From Cyclobacterium marinum DSM 745 (GTDB lineage Bacteria; Bacteroidota; Bacteroidia; Cytophagales; Cyclobacteriaceae), in assembly GCF_000222485.1 (NCBI RefSeq), contig NC_015914.1, positions 434,001-498,000 on the forward strand: a DNA stretch of 64,000 nt. The letters run 5' to 3'. Under the pieces are notes generated by a model, which was not told where the DNA came from, searched no databases, and saw only the letters and a program-made list of their open reading frames with translations. Shown here in pieces: positions 30,974-47,810 of the stretch. Each line of letters opens with the position of its first letter. Position 1 is the stretch's first letter. The position numbers and the translations under genes were made by a program.

Positions 30974-31755
30974 TAAAATTAAACACTTATTGAAAATATG
31001 TTTTTTACCTATTATTAGTTTAAAAATAATTATACCATTAAATACAAGAAAAATCACTCATAAACTTTATCACTTAAACAACTTAGTTAAAAATGGTGGA
31101 AAACCGACTATTGAAAATGCCCAATAGAAACTAAAAAATATTGGAACTTACCCTCCTTAAAATCCACGTTTCACCATTACAATTTCTTTGATTTTTTAAA
31201 TATTAAATAATTATAATACAATTTTTGACATGGTTAGATTTCAACCTATATTCAACATATTTTTCGTATTCTATTAATATTTTGATTTCATATAAATCTC
31301 GTATTTAAATATTTTATTCATTTTATTTTTTTTTAGACATAAAATACACCCTATTTTCTCAATAAACCAAAACATAAAATCCCTTAATAGATTCGTATTT
31401 AATACAACTTGGCATATCATATTTCGCGCAGCTAAAACAACTAAATGGAAGTTGAAATTAAATGATTAGTCTGGCAATTTAAAGTGGGCTCGTCAATGAA
31501 ACCTTTTTCTCACAAACGTTCTTTTCCACTTTGAACAAAACCAAACGGACTCCTTACCTAATGCTCACAACTAGAAGTTGTCGGAACTTTTATTGTCCAA
31601 TTCGAGTGCTATTTTTATTGCGATCAGTCCTTCGCCAATGAATTTCTTTGTTTTTATAAGAGGTTAAGGCAGTTCAGTTGATATTTCTATAAAATAAAGT
31701 CGAAAAAAAAAATTGAATAATAACCTATTCTAAACAAAGATATAACCCATATTAT

Positions 31756-31957
31756 GTAATAAGATTTCACCTTCTGACAATAGCCGGAGTGGAAACCTGT
31801 CCCGTGTTCATGTGAAGTATTGCCATCGCAGGTAGATCAGCTTGTTGGGTAATTTTAACATGGCACTACTAAGGTGAAATTGAAAACCGCAATGCAGTGG
31901 CTGATTTTGAAGCGGTTTCAGCTGGTAAATGTTTGTCAATTGCATATTTCGTTTAAG
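31756..31957. repeat. Copy 1 of a ~200-bp dispersed structured element
   Basis: About 202 bases that match 36087-36286 from end to end, by eye at roughly two thirds identity. Shared words include CTGACAATAG, TGATTTTGAAGCG and CATATTTCG. The unit can fold: TTTCACCTT (31765-31773) pairs with AAGGTGAAA (31871-31879), and AAACCGC (31884-31890) pairs with GCGGTTT (31912-31918) around the conserved TGATTTTGAA. In copy 2 the second stem has different bases yet still pairs. It has no open frame. The function is unknown; a non-coding RNA or a small non-autonomous mobile element are the main options. Confidence 0.65.
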
Positions 31958-31988
31958 CTCTACCAAAGTAATTCGCTTTGGTAGAGCA
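31958..31988 (-). terminator. Hairpin downstream of the outer-membrane protein gene
   Basis: A perfect 12-base stem, GCTCTACCAAAG (31958-31969) with CTTTGGTAGAGC (31977-31988), and a 7-base loop. It is 34 bases beyond the stop of the minus-strand gene at 32023. The T-run is weak (TTAAACG), so it could also be an RNA-end stabiliser. Confidence 0.55.
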
Positions 31989-32022
31989 GAGGATAATGGC
32001 TATTTTAATACTACTTGCCTCA

Positions 32023-32589
32023 TTAACGACCAAAAGTCACCCCTAAGTTAATTCCTGAGCCCCATCCTGTATTTCCTGCTGAGGCAAATTCTGCCATGAT
32101 TCCAAAATTCTTTTTATCACCGGGGTACCATCTTGTTCCCAATACAATTCCAAGTTTGCTATGATTAACAAATGAGCCATAACTGTGACCAATCGAAGGC
32201 CAATATTGACCGAAAGTAAAACCGAAATAGGGTTCCAACCCGGCAACACTAATATCGTCACCGGAAAACTCTTCAACTGCCTGGAAGGCGTAACCAACAG
32301 CTCTAAGTGTCAAGCCCAAGGTTACCCAAGTTTCATCTACATAGGAAGGGTTTCTTAAATCTGTCCCTACAGCTACTCCGACGCTCATAAAGTTGGCTAT
32401 ACCACGTTCTATATATAAGGCAACGGGGGGAATTGTAAGATTGGTGACACGATTACCTCCAAAAGTAGGATCCACTGCTAAGGTATAAAATGTACCATCT
32501 TTTTCAGTTTGAGCATTTACTTCTTCATTCACAGCTACCGTTCCAACCAGTAGCAACAGGATTAGAATTTTAATTTTGATCATTTTCAT
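32023..32589 (-). CDS. Secreted outer-membrane beta-barrel-like protein
   Basis: 188 residues with a signal peptide (I-L-I-L-L-L-L-V-G, cut near N-A-Q). The mature part consists of alternating hydrophobic strands (V-A-L-Y-I-E-R-G, F-M-S-V-G-V-A-V-G, L-E-P-Y-F-G-F-T-F-G, S-K-L-G-I-V-L-G-T-R-W-Y, I-N-L-G-V-T-F-G-R), as expected for a small eight-stranded barrel. No specific family or enzyme motif is recognised. It is a single gene with a possible hairpin terminator. Confidence 0.7.
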   Translation of the reverse strand: MKMIKIKILILLLLVGTVAVNEEVNAQTEKDGTFYTLAVDPTFGGNRVTNLTIPPVALYIERGIANFMSVGVAVGTDLRNPSYVDETWVTLGLTLRAVGYAFQAVEEFSGDDISVAGLEPYFGFTFGQYWPSIGHSYGSFVNHSKLGIVLGTRWYPGDKKNFGIMAEFASAGNTGWGSGINLGVTFGR

Positions 32590-33183
32590 ATTTAGTTAGT
32601 TTTTGTTGAGTCTGGGGTTTGTAATCATTTAATTAAAATCAAAACACAGCAATCCTTACAATAAAATTTATTATAATTACCTTATAATCTGACACCTATG
32701 CGATTCTAATTGTATTCAAATGTATTGTTAAATAAATAGACTGAGAATTAGAATTCGTGAAGGGTGGCTAATTATTCGTGAATGCAATTGTTGGTTGTGT
32801 GAAGGAGAAAAAAAAACAGCCAAACATATAGGCAAAACTGCCGCCCCCTTCATTAGGATCTCCAAAAAAAATATTTATCACTTTAAATTAACAAGTAATT
32901 TGGGGCAAAGGAAAAATTTTAAATTGTTTCTACATACAAAAAACCATTTTATTTTTTAGATCAAAAGGCTATTAGTTTAAGAATAGTTGACAACTGATAG
33001 GAATCAATCATATATTATAGCAGGATACCTGATATTCAAAAACTTACAAATATAATCCGATATGGATTTACCTTTTATTTTTCGTATTTTGAGTTTCAAT
33101 TGACAGCATAGGAAAATACTATTGACGATCTTTTATTCTTTTGCTTCACTATTCCTACCCATACATTTTAACCAAAAAACATC
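32590..33183. other. AT-rich divergent intergenic region
   Basis: 594 bases between the divergent barrel and DUF5996 genes. On the minus strand TTCCTTTG (32906-32913) resembles the -7 promoter box, with a TTTG-like word 23 bases upstream; the spacing is longer than usual. Nothing else was found. Confidence 0.35.
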
Positions 33184-34098
33184 ATGAGTAAGCCCCTATC
33201 AACTGAATGGCCGGTTTTAGATTTTTCAGCAATGCAGGAGACTGTTGAAACCATGCACCAATGGCTACAAATAATAGGTAAAATCCGGTTAAAAACCATG
33301 CCTTGGCAAAACCACTCCTGGCACACAACATTGTACCTCTCTCCAGTAGGTTATTCTACTCAGGCCATTTGTTTTGATGGTGGTATTTTTGAAATAGAGT
33401 TGGATTTTATCCACCATCAACTGCACATCAAATCTTCAAATGCTGAAACGCAACACATTGCGTTAAAAACAATGAGTGTAGCTGACTTTTACAAAGCACT
33501 TTTTGAGAAATTAGCCGCTTTGAGAATTAACGTAAAAATCCATGGCAGTCCAAATGAAATGGAACCGGCCATTCCTTTTTCCAGCAATACGGCCATCAGT
33601 ACCTACGATCCAGAAGCTGCCAACCTACTTTGGAAAGCCATGCTCAAGTCAAATGGTGTATTCAATAAATTTCGAAGTGACTTTATTGGTAAATCCAGTC
33701 CTGTTCACCTATTCTGGGGTGCTTTTGATTTGGCTGTAACCCGATTTTCCGGAAGACCTGCGCCCCTACATCAGGGAGGCGTACCCAACATGCCACTCGA
33801 CGTAATGCAGGAAGCCTATTCTCATGAAGTAAGTAGTGCGGGATTCTGGCCGGGGTCCAAAGATTCGCCCGTGCCCGTTTTTTATGCCTATGCCTATCCC
33901 GGTAATGAAGCGTATGCAAAGCAAAAGGTTTTACCCGAACAAGCATTTTACAGTCCTGAAATGGGAGAGTTTTTCCTTAAATATGAGGACGTACAATCTG
34001 CTTCGGATCCGGAGAAAACCTTAATGGATTTTTTACAGACCACCTACGAGGCAGCAGCCAATACCTCAAACTGGGACCGAGATGCTTTGGAAAAGTGA
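33184..34098 (+). CDS. DUF5996-family protein
   Basis: 304 residues, soluble, no signal peptide. Typical family landmarks are W-P-V-L-D-F near the start, M-P-W-Q-N-H-S-W-H-T-T-L-Y near residue 39, and V-H-L-F-W-G-A-F-D-L-A-V-T-R-F-S-G-R near residue 175, with E-V-S-S-A-G-F-W-P-G further on. The family is widespread but has no established function. It stands alone, with no terminator seen after it. Confidence 0.8.
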   Translation: MSKPLSTEWPVLDFSAMQETVETMHQWLQIIGKIRLKTMPWQNHSWHTTLYLSPVGYSTQAICFDGGIFEIELDFIHHQLHIKSSNAETQHIALKTMSVADFYKALFEKLAALRINVKIHGSPNEMEPAIPFSSNTAISTYDPEAANLLWKAMLKSNGVFNKFRSDFIGKSSPVHLFWGAFDLAVTRFSGRPAPLHQGGVPNMPLDVMQEAYSHEVSSAGFWPGSKDSPVPVFYAYAYPGNEAYAKQKVLPEQAFYSPEMGEFFLKYEDVQSASDPEKTLMDFLQTTYEAAANTSNWDRDALEK

Positions 34099-34185
34099 AG
34101 CGGGAATAGCTAGATGGTTTTGTAGATGTGTTAACCCCTCCCTACTCTGCCGGAACAGGCACTGCCTCTTGATTTGAGGGATTAA

Positions 34186-34326
34186 TTCGTAAACTGTAAT
34201 ATAAAGCAGTATTTAAACCTTAAGTATTTTGAGGTCTTTTTAGAAAAATATGCTGACAAAATAGTTGAAAAATGCATTAGCTATTTTGTATACCATAAAG
34301 ATGTTGAGTTCGATAAAATTACTTAA
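34186..34326 (+). pseudogene. Possible gene remnant upstream of the DUF2442 gene
   Basis: Forty-six in-frame codons without an ATG, ending in TAA at 34324-34326, only 8 bases before the DUF2442 start. The product (Y-F-E-V-F-L-E-K-Y-A-D-K-I-V-E-K-C-I-S-Y-F) looks like real protein. It may be the tail of a lost partner gene; DUF2442 genes often follow another small gene. The evidence is composition and spacing only. Confidence 0.25.
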
Positions 34327-34334
34327 AAATTAAA

Positions 34335-34640
34335 ATGAAAATAATTGTTGACTATAAAGATTCTGAGTCTGGAGTTAATCAGTTGAAAATTGATTCTGCT
34401 AAGTATTTGTGGGATTATGCGATTCTGATTGTTTTTAACGATGGTAAGGAGAGGCTTATTGACTTTAAACCATTTCTATCAAAATCCCTTCATCCATCTA
34501 TTAAAAAATATTTAGATGAAAATAAATTTTCCAACTTCTCATTGATTGATGGAAATTTAAACTGGAATGATTATGATTTGATTTTTCCAATTTCTGATTT
34601 ACATAAAGGCCAGATTGACACGAAATTCACTAAACCTTAA
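34335..34640 (+). CDS. DUF2442 domain-containing protein
   Basis: 101 residues. The domain shows D-Y-A-I-L-I-V-F-N-D-G-K-E-R-L-I-D-F-K-P-F-L, F-S-N-F-S-L-I-D-G-N-L-N-W and Y-D-L-I-F-P, the usual order of DUF2442: strand with FxDG, D-x-x-P-L, then W-x-x-x-x-D-L. Members often pair with DUF4160 proteins in toxin-antitoxin-like modules, but no intact partner is present. The function is unproven. Confidence 0.7.
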   Translation: MKIIVDYKDSESGVNQLKIDSAKYLWDYAILIVFNDGKERLIDFKPFLSKSLHPSIKKYLDENKFSNFSLIDGNLNWNDYDLIFPISDLHKGQIDTKFTKP

Positions 34641-34834
34641 TCGTGTCGACAGGCCCTCAAGATTTCTCTGGCGGAGAGTACCGCACGTAGGTTTCATGAG
34701 CTTTTCGCAATGCTATTTCAGTCAACACAAGGCTCACTCCTCTGTCTAAAGAAAGTTGAAAACATTCGGCATTACTGGTCCAAGTTACGCTTCGCCAAAC
34801 TTAGACCAGATACGGGCACGTCTCAACCATCCCC

Positions 34835-35980
34835 CTAAACCTTTACATACCAGCGGTTCCTATCCATCCACCAACCTATCAGCCATATGATCAGCATAAA
34901 AGAAATTGAGAACAATAAACTTGCCCACCCTTCGGGAAATACCGGTTCATAAAGGGTTTTATAGGTCAGATTTCGGATGGATTGACCTTCAATCCTTATC
35001 ATTCCCAAGATTCTTACCAATACACCTGATAAGATGTACAAAGCCAAGGGGTTTTTGCCAAAGACTTCGAAAAAGTAGGCCCAACCTTTGATAGACCGTA
35101 CTTCCAATATAAACATTAATAGAGCTAAGGTAAGGGTGGAATATCCGACCGTAACCAGCGTAAAAGAACTGGTCCAAATCTTCTTGTTAATTGGGAAACC
35201 ATAATCCCAAAGGTAACCTACGACAAGTAAAATCACTGCAAACATGGCCAACCAAAGAACAGTCTCAATGTCCCCTCCTCTCTTTTGTATCTGGAGACCT
35301 ACCCAATAGCCCAACAATACATTGACCATGGCAGGAAAAGTACTTAACAGACCTTCAGGATCAAAGGCAAACCCATTCATCTTGTAGAGGTTATCAGGTG
35401 AAAAAAGCCAGAGATCCAATCGACCACTTGCATTGCCTTCCAAGGAAAAGGGATCCATACCCGGAACGCCAAAAAGAAACATTACCAGCCAATAGGAGAG
35501 TAAAATAAGACCACTTGTAATCAGAATCTTTTTAGGACTCAAAAAATAGATCAAGGTAGCACCAAGTCCATAACACAAAGCTATTCGCTGCAAAACACCT
35601 AAAATTCTAATGCTAGTAAAATCATAGGGGACCACTCCGCTGTCGTTAACTCTAAAGAAGGGGAAAGCTGTCAAAAGCAGGCCAATTATAAAAATTAAGG
35701 CTGTTCTCTTAAATACTTTACTAAAATAGGCTTTACCCCCTTTCAATTTAAATTTACCGAGACTGAAGCTCATCGCATTGCCTACTACAAACAAAAAAGA
35801 AGGAAATACCAAATCTGTTAAAGTTAATCCATGCCAATCAGCATGTGTTAAAGGGCCAAAACTAGTACTTCCATCTCCCGGAGTATTTACTATAACCATC
35901 AAGGCCAATGTCAATCCCCGTAAAACATCTAGGGATTGATACCTTGTATGGGGCGTAATGGAATCCAATGTATTTGTCAT
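34835..35980 (-). CDS. NagX/heparan-alpha-glucosaminide acetyltransferase-like membrane protein
   Basis: 381 residues with about ten membrane helices. The N-terminus has R-Y-Q-S-L-D-V-L-R-G-L-T-L-A-L-M-V-I-V-N-T-P-G and then H-A-D-W-H-G-L-T-L-T-D-L-V-F-P-S-F-L-F-V-V-G. This is the conserved H-x-x-W-x-G-x-x-x-x-D-x-x-F-P signature of the DUF5009/NagX group related to human HGSNAT. It probably moves an acetyl group across the inner membrane onto an amino sugar, or acts as a transporter; which is not settled for bacterial members. Confidence 0.82.
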   Translation of the reverse strand: MTNTLDSITPHTRYQSLDVLRGLTLALMVIVNTPGDGSTSFGPLTHADWHGLTLTDLVFPSFLFVVGNAMSFSLGKFKLKGGKAYFSKVFKRTALIFIIGLLLTAFPFFRVNDSGVVPYDFTSIRILGVLQRIALCYGLGATLIYFLSPKKILITSGLILLSYWLVMFLFGVPGMDPFSLEGNASGRLDLWLFSPDNLYKMNGFAFDPEGLLSTFPAMVNVLLGYWVGLQIQKRGGDIETVLWLAMFAVILLVVGYLWDYGFPINKKIWTSSFTLVTVGYSTLTLALLMFILEVRSIKGWAYFFEVFGKNPLALYILSGVLVRILGMIRIEGQSIRNLTYKTLYEPVFPEGWASLLFSISFMLIIWLIGWWMDRNRWYVKV

Positions 35981-36086
35981 CGTATAGCTATGTTATTTTT
36001 TTAAAAGTGAAAAACGCTAAATAAAATTTATCCGGTCAGATCCCAAAACAGCCTACAAGTGTATGGGTTGATTAAACCAGAATTAA

Positions 36087-36286
36087 GTAATCAGATTTCT
36101 CCGCCCTGACAATAGGGGTGATGGCCTTTTCCGTGTTTAGGGGAAGTGTTGCAATCGCAAGAAATCCAACTTGTTTAGAGGTTTTAGTATAGCACCGTTA
36201 GGGTAAAATTGAAAGAAGCAACGAAACAGTTGATTTTGAAGCGCTTTCAACACATAATAGATTGTCTATTCCATATTTCGAGTTAA
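36087..36286. repeat. Copy 2 of the ~200-bp dispersed structured element
   Basis: 200 bases colinear with 31756-31957. The second stem is GAAAG-aa-GC (36211-36219) with GC-g-CTTTC (36241-36248), different bases from copy 1 but still able to pair, around the same TTGATTTTGAA loop. The outer stem is weaker here. Flanks differ fully from those of copy 1, so the element has defined ends. No open frame. Confidence 0.65.
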
Positions 36287-36746
36287 ATTTTGATGTAACA
36301 AACTTTTAATAATCTATGTATTTCTTCCAGCCCTTGGAAAAACGAGTAGCTAATCAAAGCATCAATTATGGACTTCACAGTTCCTATCTGTCAAATCATA
36401 AAATTTAGGCTAAGTTTATTGAGGGTTTAATATGCAAAATGAATAAAAGAGCCATAAATAGCATGTTAATGCTCCTGTAGCCAATGGCTTGGTCAAGAAA
36501 ACCATTGTTTTCGGCCCTTAATTTCTATCAACCCAATCAAAAAAACAAAAGTATAGCCACTTATTATGATATTAATCAGGCCCTAGAAGAAAAATATCTG
36601 AATCAATGGGCTTTCTTTTCAATCTTTTTTATGACCCCCTTAAAAAATCGGAAATAGATACCCCTTTACTAAAGATTAATCAATACCTTATTCAAAAGTC
36701 ACTAAATCATATTCGGTAATTTCAAATCACCTAAACTACCGAAAAT

Positions 36747-47388: not shown

Positions 47389-47810
47389 CCCAATTAACCG
47401 CCAGTATTATTGATTTTTTTTTAGTATAGTATAAATTTTTTACGCTTAACGCCCTCTATTTTTTTTATTATTGGCCTTATAATTGTGAATACAGGTTCAA
47501 CTGATAAATTATTAATAGCGTAAATGATATAGGTTGGAAGAGATATTTATATTGTAAAGCAGTGTAATCCAAATGAGATTTATTTGCGTTACTTTATAAC
47601 GAAAATAAATTTAGGTGCCGCGCTTTTCAATAGACACCTTAGAAATATTGAATAAGAAGGAAGCATAAAATAATGCGTTTCCTTTAAATTGACAAAACCA
47701 ATTAAGCTGTTGAATTTGAAGCAATTTAACCCTGTTGCAAAATAATTTTCAGTTTAATTAAAAAACTAAATAGTTTAATCGATCCTTTAAAACATCACTA
47801 GGTAAAACCA
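47389..47810. other. Intergenic region with a weak third copy of the dispersed element
   Basis: 422 AT-rich bases ahead of the large adhesin-like gene. The stretch 47684-47729 recalls the 3' part of the dispersed element: AAATTGACAAAACC, then GCTGTTGAATTTGAAGC. Its flanks TTAAATTG (47684-47691) and CAATTTAA (47722-47729) pair perfectly. The rest of the element is not recognisable, so this may be chance. Confidence 0.35.

Follow-up and report, generated by a model that had tools for sequence, protein, structure and literature searches.

Bacterial miniature inverted-repeat transposable elements (MITEs) are usually regarded as the short-lived remains of a single insertion sequence (IS), specific to the genome in which they lie. 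Here, we describe a MITE that is present as two copies in a 64,000-nucleotide stretch of the Cyclobacterium marinum DSM 745 genome (NC_015914.1, positions 434001-498000, hereafter the window; the host genome is one contig of 6.22 Mb). Among the described systems, the MITEs with hairpin transcripts, RU-1, RU-2, QMITE2, and MITECca01 (Cardinium), are similar in that, as the available accounts describe them, they are likewise short and free of a transposase, carry inverted repeats, lie mostly between genes, and have a stable predicted hairpin (PMC10969869, PMC9769881). For MITECca01, restriction to a single strain and probable maintenance by a resident parental element of the IS982 family have been described, whereas the present element occurs in many genera and perhaps several phyla, shows covariation across lineages, and is mostly without a visible resident parent. 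The palindromes of the repetitive extragenic palindrome (REP)/REP-associated tyrosine transposase (RAYT) system are also high-copy and intergenic, but REPs are given as 20-40 bp (PMC3733652), compared with 160-210 bp and target duplications here. BrickBuilt and the other MITEs of Porphyromonas gingivalis likewise belong to Bacteroidota, and BrickBuilt is also reported as intergenic; however, their reported inverted repeats, such as CCGAAAGGTCTC, are different, and they have tandem 23-nt cores (PMC4596501). Searches restricted to open-access papers yielded no description of the present element. The element is known in kind. It is unusual in two respects: its interior forms a covarying, strand-asymmetric fold that many hosts have in common, and the element seems to outlast its likely helper.

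The repeats in the window are worn copies of a high-copy mobile element, a MITE. The initial annotation of this DNA had noticed two regions, 31756-31957 and 36087-36286, that match from end to end. The match is far beyond chance and both copies are present, but the true borders, read from an alignment of 30 copies in the host genome, lie slightly outside those positions (Table 1). The initial annotation had also allowed for the case that the genome holds only two copies and that covariation is absent. Neither was found: with copy 1 as the blastn query, the host genome has at least 40 scored places among 93 first-look candidates, copy 1 itself included, and the 39 others, copy 2 among them, are 70-81% identical to it (E ≤ 4.8e-15); the covariation is described below. 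The element has 17-bp terminal inverted repeats near CCCGGATTATGYAATAG, for which the host genome contains 149 matches with up to 3 mismatches, compared with 3 for the reversed control. When the 30 host copies were aligned, with the reverse-strand loci turned, the borders were sharp, with CCCGGATTATGTAATAG at one end, CTATTGCATATTTCGGG at the other, and TTNAA flanks outside them. An exact 5-bp target duplication is present in 14 of the 30 copies, and the duplicated sequences include TTCAA, TTGAA, TTAAA, and ATTAT. The core form of the element is about 166 bp, and a long form of about 208 bp has two extra predicted 5′ hairpins. Both window copies lie between long minus-strand open reading frames (ORFs), and no ORF of at least 80 amino acids overlaps either of them. 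The element thus shows terminal inverted repeats, a target duplication of fixed length, and a short sequence without a transposase gene. Because it combines inverted repeats and a length too short for a transposase gene with 5-bp duplications of the TTNAA type and two empty orthologous sites, we classify it as a MITE.

The element has undergone a recent burst in a congener (G010, 6.16 Mb), of which 2.4 Mb was scanned for pairs of element ends. This part contains 159 end pairs 30-320 bp apart, and 100 of them carry an exact 5-bp duplication (TTTAA 46, TTAAA 40, TTGAA 7, TTCAA 6, and CTAAA 1). When the 43 pairs with poorer ends had been set aside beforehand, leaving those with at most 2 mismatches per end, the exact duplication was present in 91/116, against 1/116 for a shifted control and 1/116 for a 6-bp duplication. 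The 100 duplication-bearing pairs span 39-296 bp and fall into discrete size classes, mainly 39, 166, 187, and 205-212 bp. A blastn search of the same 2.4 Mb gave 137 non-overlapping hits, 101 of which have at least 130 aligned bases; of these long hits, 85 share at least 95% identity with the consensus built from the host genome. In a separate search of G010, the 13 copies scored (of 449 candidates) are 98-99% identical to this consensus. Four pairs of loci from the host and G010 were compared. Two of the host loci have empty orthologous sites (L015, with a single TTAAA, and L026), and the other two (L016 and L018) are too diverged from their counterparts to be read. Based on simple ORF calls, 76 of the 81 duplication-bearing G010 elements longer than 100 bp are intergenic, as are 109 of 116 copies when the duplication is not required. 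A bias in orientation relative to genes was rejected: among the copies with an intact duplication, 29 run opposite to the gene and 12 in the same direction, but the counts were 33 and 25 with all copies (p = 0.36).

The element is also found outside the genus. It has a match in 15 of 59 genomes, the host included, namely in 10 of the 11 other genomes of the genus and in G019, G025, G030, and G033. A scan of a genome collection for TTNAA plus the inverted repeat and one extra restriction gave 60 stretches, where about one is expected at random by our own estimate. They come from Aquimarina, Labilibacter, Saprospiraceae, Roseivirga, Fulvivirga, Cyclobacterium, Sediminibacterium, Winogradskyella, and others; hosts known from the labels of metagenome-assembled genomes (MAGs), which can be wrong, include Chlorobiota, Elusimicrobia, Calditrichota, Verrucomicrobia, Sulfurimonas, and Gammaproteobacteria. 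Together with one viral contig this makes 61 loci, and in 46 of them the ends are at most 450 bp apart, mostly 160-210 bp, with identical 5-bp flanks. Across hosts, the outer arms are found again together with the core AGCATAGCACCGCTATGGT or close variants of this core, and the letters of the stem vary. At a threshold of E ≤ 1e-3, a covariance model of the conserved fold (R2) finds 53 of these 61 loci. Of the 61, 18 provided rows for its training, and many others are near-copies from Aquimarina; distinct matches that were not used for training include the MAG copy L227 (5.8e-16), L235, L248, and L215 (2.4e-7). The plasmid and phage collections gave no element match. In a Saprospiraceae MAG, one element is nested within another (L252:3396-3732). 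Several contig ends of a Sulfurimonas MAG (L271-L274, L277, L280, and L282) have the ends CCCGAATTATGCAATAGAA or CCCAAATTATGCAATAAAG after TTNAA-like flanks, and the starts of short ORFs at these loci look transposase-like by eye.

The fold was analyzed in an alignment (A3) of 20 diverse copies, 2 from the 30 host copies and 18 from the 61 loci L210-L270. Near-duplicates, copies with large insertions (L227, L235, L237, and L248), contig-end copies, later finds, and aberrant copies (L210, L229, L244, L247, L250, L252, L253, and L266) were omitted. The ribosum consensus has 63 pairs, spans the whole element, and is paired in 89.8% of cells. Both sides change in 35 of the 63 pairs, giving 155 such cells versus 49 ± 6 in shuffles, and the covariation score is 0.375 versus at most 0.081 in slid versions. 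Against a null based on parsimony on the tree, the observed value was 0.383 and the maximum of 150 simulations was 0.190; the alifold value was −97.8, compared with −41.5 for the best of 60 refolded nulls. Because distant relatives keep the hairpin fold while its letters change, the alignment suggests that the fold itself is useful and selected.

This fold is not the one that was first proposed. The initial annotation had placed a stem, AAACCGC/GCGGTTT, around the loop TGATTTTGAA and held that its arms change together, which would point to a selected RNA or DNA structure. Across the 20 copies, this stem is paired in 60.6% of cells, compared with 33-50% for slid versions and 63.0% for shuffles, and it scores 0.141 for covariation, less than the mean of 0.164 in shuffles. 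The covariation is real and strong across lineages, but it belongs to a different pairing, in which TGATTTT pairs with AAAATCA; the wrong arms had been chosen and the transposable element had been missed. A 2-bp side hairpin inside the asymmetric loop covaries too (GC, AU, and GU; 82.5% of cells paired). A weaker relative had been suspected at 47684-47729, where R2 with default filters reports nothing at E ≤ 10, whereas it finds copy 1 (match at 31820-31921, 36.7 bits, E = 5e-6) and copy 2 (36136-36263, 57.5 bits, E = 1.8e-10). The impression that no known RNA family covers the element was correct: Rfam has 0 matches in the window at the gathering score, and the best relaxed matches, at 17.5 bits against a cut-off of 50 and at 22.9 bits against a cut-off of 140, are not credible.

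The two strands of the element differ. On the window-plus strand there are 75 G-T and 23 A-C cells, counted over related sequences, with 36 and 16 in the inner helices, and the counts are 55 and 21 on the 54 pairs that are also recovered by folding the other strand. The window-plus strand is the more stable one in 20/20 copies. Since G-U exceeds A-C on one strand, this asymmetry favours an RNA, or at least one particular strand.

Table 1. Coordinates of the element copies in the window and loci of the insertion sequence found in element ends
Feature	Position or loci	Strand	Description
Element copy 1	31746..31951	+ (strand of conserved fold)	long form, 206 bp, decayed; from 30-copy genome alignment, right border read directly
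Copy 1 left flank	31741..31745		TATAA, sequence read; 4 of 5 letters common with right flank
Copy 1 right flank	31952..31956		TTTAA, sequence read
Copy 1 left terminal inverted repeat	31746..31762	+	CCCATATTATGTAATAA, 3 mismatches
Element copy 2 (locus L029)	36077..36282	+	long form, 206 bp, decayed; from 30-copy alignment
Copy 2 left target duplication	36072..36076		TTAAA, exact 5-bp pair
Copy 2 right target duplication	36283..36287		TTAAA, exact 5-bp pair
Copy 2 right terminal inverted repeat, inward	36266..36282	-	CTCGAAATATGGAATAG, 3 mismatches
IS4-family IS	L073, L083, L085, L087, L089-L098 (G010, G009, G000 = host)		1392-1393 bp, ends CAATGTCGTTTAGTTAAGG

Copy 1 is directly followed by a perfect 12-bp hairpin, GCTCTACCAAAG/CTTTGGTAGAGC, at 31957-31987. 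It may serve as terminator for the gene located at 32023-32589, and an altered version is present at the orthologous site in G010.

The IS1380 family is the best candidate class of mobiliser, because, within the same bacterial family, some of its members match or resemble the element in their ends and target; we regard this assignment as evenly balanced between right and wrong. IS1247, a member of this family, is listed with a 5-bp direct repeat (PMC3281130). In G150, a decayed IS1380 copy (L285; transposase NF033539, E = 4.4e-74) has CCCGGATTATGCAATAG next to TTAAA at one end, which matches the element at 17/17 positions, and its other end matches at 15/17. Another copy (L286) has a 14/17 end and an exact TTAAT duplication, and the ends of a third (L346) match at 15/17, so that IS1380 ends identical to the element or matching it at 15 of 17 positions occur in two genera of the bacterial family. 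A match to known IS ends, which the initial annotation had considered, was found in part: the 17-bp end of the element recurs in one IS1380, and related ends occur in others. A drift to CATTG is common to one element and one IS1380 fragment of G030. Among 25 relatives from other genera, an IS1380 hit below 1e-10 is present in 3 of 4 carriers of the element versus 3 of 21 non-carriers, which is a weak association. The element and IS1380 thus have the L285 end beside TTAAA, and the related end with the TTAAT duplication, in common, whereas the transposase gene is absent from the element. Only the outer 20 bp or so are alike by eye, and beyond them the L285 ends and the element arms have no resemblance; the element is therefore not a plain internal-deletion product of the L285 IS.

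Other candidates did not qualify. Four end pairs in G010 near 1.7 kb were rejected as the parent: the two that were opened hold a nested IS3-type element, and blastn located this inner sequence in the remaining two as well. This two-ORF element, assigned to the IS3 type by eye from its ORFs, is nested in two G010 copies at slightly different interior places (G010:C1:1083482-1085219 and 1216460-1218200). An IS4-family element was rejected as the mobiliser for its ends, CAATGTCG, and its 10-bp duplication, and so were two further DDE_Tnp_1 elements, which have other ends. The weak hits that the IS1380 model gives in the host, G010, and G009 lie on the transposase of the IS4-family element, PF13701 has no match in the host and G010, and G002 and G005 have short weak IS1380 fragments (5e-7 and 2.2e-4).

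Taking mobility and fold together, we consider it probable that the element is a MITE moved in trans whose fold is kept as RNA of one strand. A transposase supplied in trans would act on the inverted repeats and bring the element into TTNAA sites, and the fold would be maintained as RNA from one strand. The likeliest role, which is a guess, may lie in the element's own tolerance or spread, with a read-through transcript folding into a compact branched hairpin.

Several observations weigh against this interpretation. IS1380 is over the family cut-off in none of the 25 carrier genomes, many of which are MAGs (weak hits in 5 of them, best 1.8e-8), and in only 1 of 12 genomes of the genus (G011), where its ends are different. 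A parent with the element ends was not seen in G010, neither in the scan of 2.4 of its 6.16 Mb for pairs up to 9 kb apart nor with two restricted patterns run on the whole genome, which gave 13 hits (8 loci opened) and 11 hits (25 letters judged); all hits opened or read were ends of the element or the mini-element, or close to these. As to a very wide spread, R2 matches at least 6 of 395 genomes of the phylum, a lower bound because only 7 candidates were scored per genome. As to the fold, the cells count related sequences, and the 75-to-23 asymmetry does not stand for 98 independent events; moreover, RNAalifold with default settings gave only 3 pairs for the 30 host copies, and model R1 was left unused.

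From the scarcity of IS1380 in carriers and the absence of a visible parent in G010, we therefore suggest that the mobiliser may be transient, lost, or of another kind. In the last case, the mover would be a transposase without inverted repeats of its own, a domesticated resident (REP/RAYT-like), or some other unseen helper instead of IS1380. Such a helper would fit the G010 burst, which has neither an IS1380 over the cut-off nor a visible parent, and the 0/25 among carriers. However, it would leave aside the identical (L285) and 15-of-17 (L346) IS1380 ends in two genera of the family, the shared CATTG drift in G030, and the more frequent IS1380 hits in carriers (3/4 versus 3/21). We regard a helper other than IS1380 as possible but on the unlikely side.

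The fold can also be explained differently. It may be that the arms of a hairpin MITE change together by self-correction through template switching in an imperfect palindrome, and not by selection. L017 contains a nearly perfect extended palindrome, which agrees with this explanation, as does the frequency of 39-bp forms that fit hairpin loss. The 2.4 Mb of G010 contain 17 of these mini palindromes with an exact duplication and little beyond the two inverted repeats; their length is the one that a deletion at the hairpin base, from one GTAATAG repeat to the other, would leave, and other hosts have forms of 51-57 bp. We infer that the 39-57-bp forms are scars of occasional hairpin loss between the short direct repeats that flank its base, and because the 39-bp forms are common, the hairpin may well form or slip in DNA. 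Nevertheless, correction of this type is expected to be blind to the strand, yet G-T exceeds A-C on one strand in both counts given above; the asymmetric side hairpin keeps its own covariation, and both the core loop and the size of 160-210 bp are found again in distant hosts. We consider template switching an unlikely explanation of the fold, but possible enough to be the main reason for not placing more confidence in an RNA kept by selection.

Single-stranded hairpin mobility of the IS200/IS605 type or like that of integron cassettes, in which the fold would be the recombination substrate, agrees with the better folding of one strand in 20/20 copies and with the uneven orientation (4 plus, 13 minus) in the final 0.4 Mb of the scanned G010 sequence, the part that contains the turn of the cumulative GC skew. 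However, the IS200/IS605 and integron-cassette mechanisms are not known to make a 5-bp duplication, which is present in 91/116, and the orientation is even in the first 2.0 Mb, where the GC skew is steady (52 plus, 47 minus), and overall (56 to 60), which makes this mechanism very improbable. If a structured RNA gene or a regulatory leader of the host had been duplicated with no transposition of its own, this would account for the strong conservation of the fold and the strand asymmetry, but such an origin is hardly credible in view of the inverted repeats, the fixed 5-bp duplication of varied sequence (from TTTAA to CTAAA), the two empty orthologous sites, and the burst of similar dispersed copies.

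The element is itself the target of another mobile element. Of 29 DDE_Tnp_1 matches in four genomes, 14 loci are one IS4-family IS (NF033592, E = 5.6e-50; Table 1). Thirteen of these copies sit exactly at the tip of the inverted repeat, in the outermost 10 bp of the element; the fourteenth site (L090) is end-like and has no TTNAA flank. An exact 10-bp duplication is present in 12 of the 14. This IS is target-specific and preys on a MITE. IS231 inserts into the ends of Tn4430, which is similar in that an IS4-family element enters the tips of inverted repeats, but differs in host phylum and target.

A more far-reaching proposal, which we put forward tentatively and consider doubtful, is that a conserved structured RNA is the sole cargo of a protein-free element across several phyla, that it outlives its helpers, and that the RNA acts in the life cycle of the element, for example, by binding the transposase or a common host factor. 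If true, it would be a bacterial counterpart of the RNAs of short interspersed nuclear elements (SINEs), moving as DNA. The family can also serve as a repeat marker in genomes of Cyclobacterium and Aquimarina, and it provides a defined target for an IS of the IS4 type. Because an element without protein keeps one fold with many compensatory changes over genera, and perhaps over phyla, the RNA or the hairpin seems to be selected, which raises the question of whether a non-coding element can persist by carrying a functional RNA.

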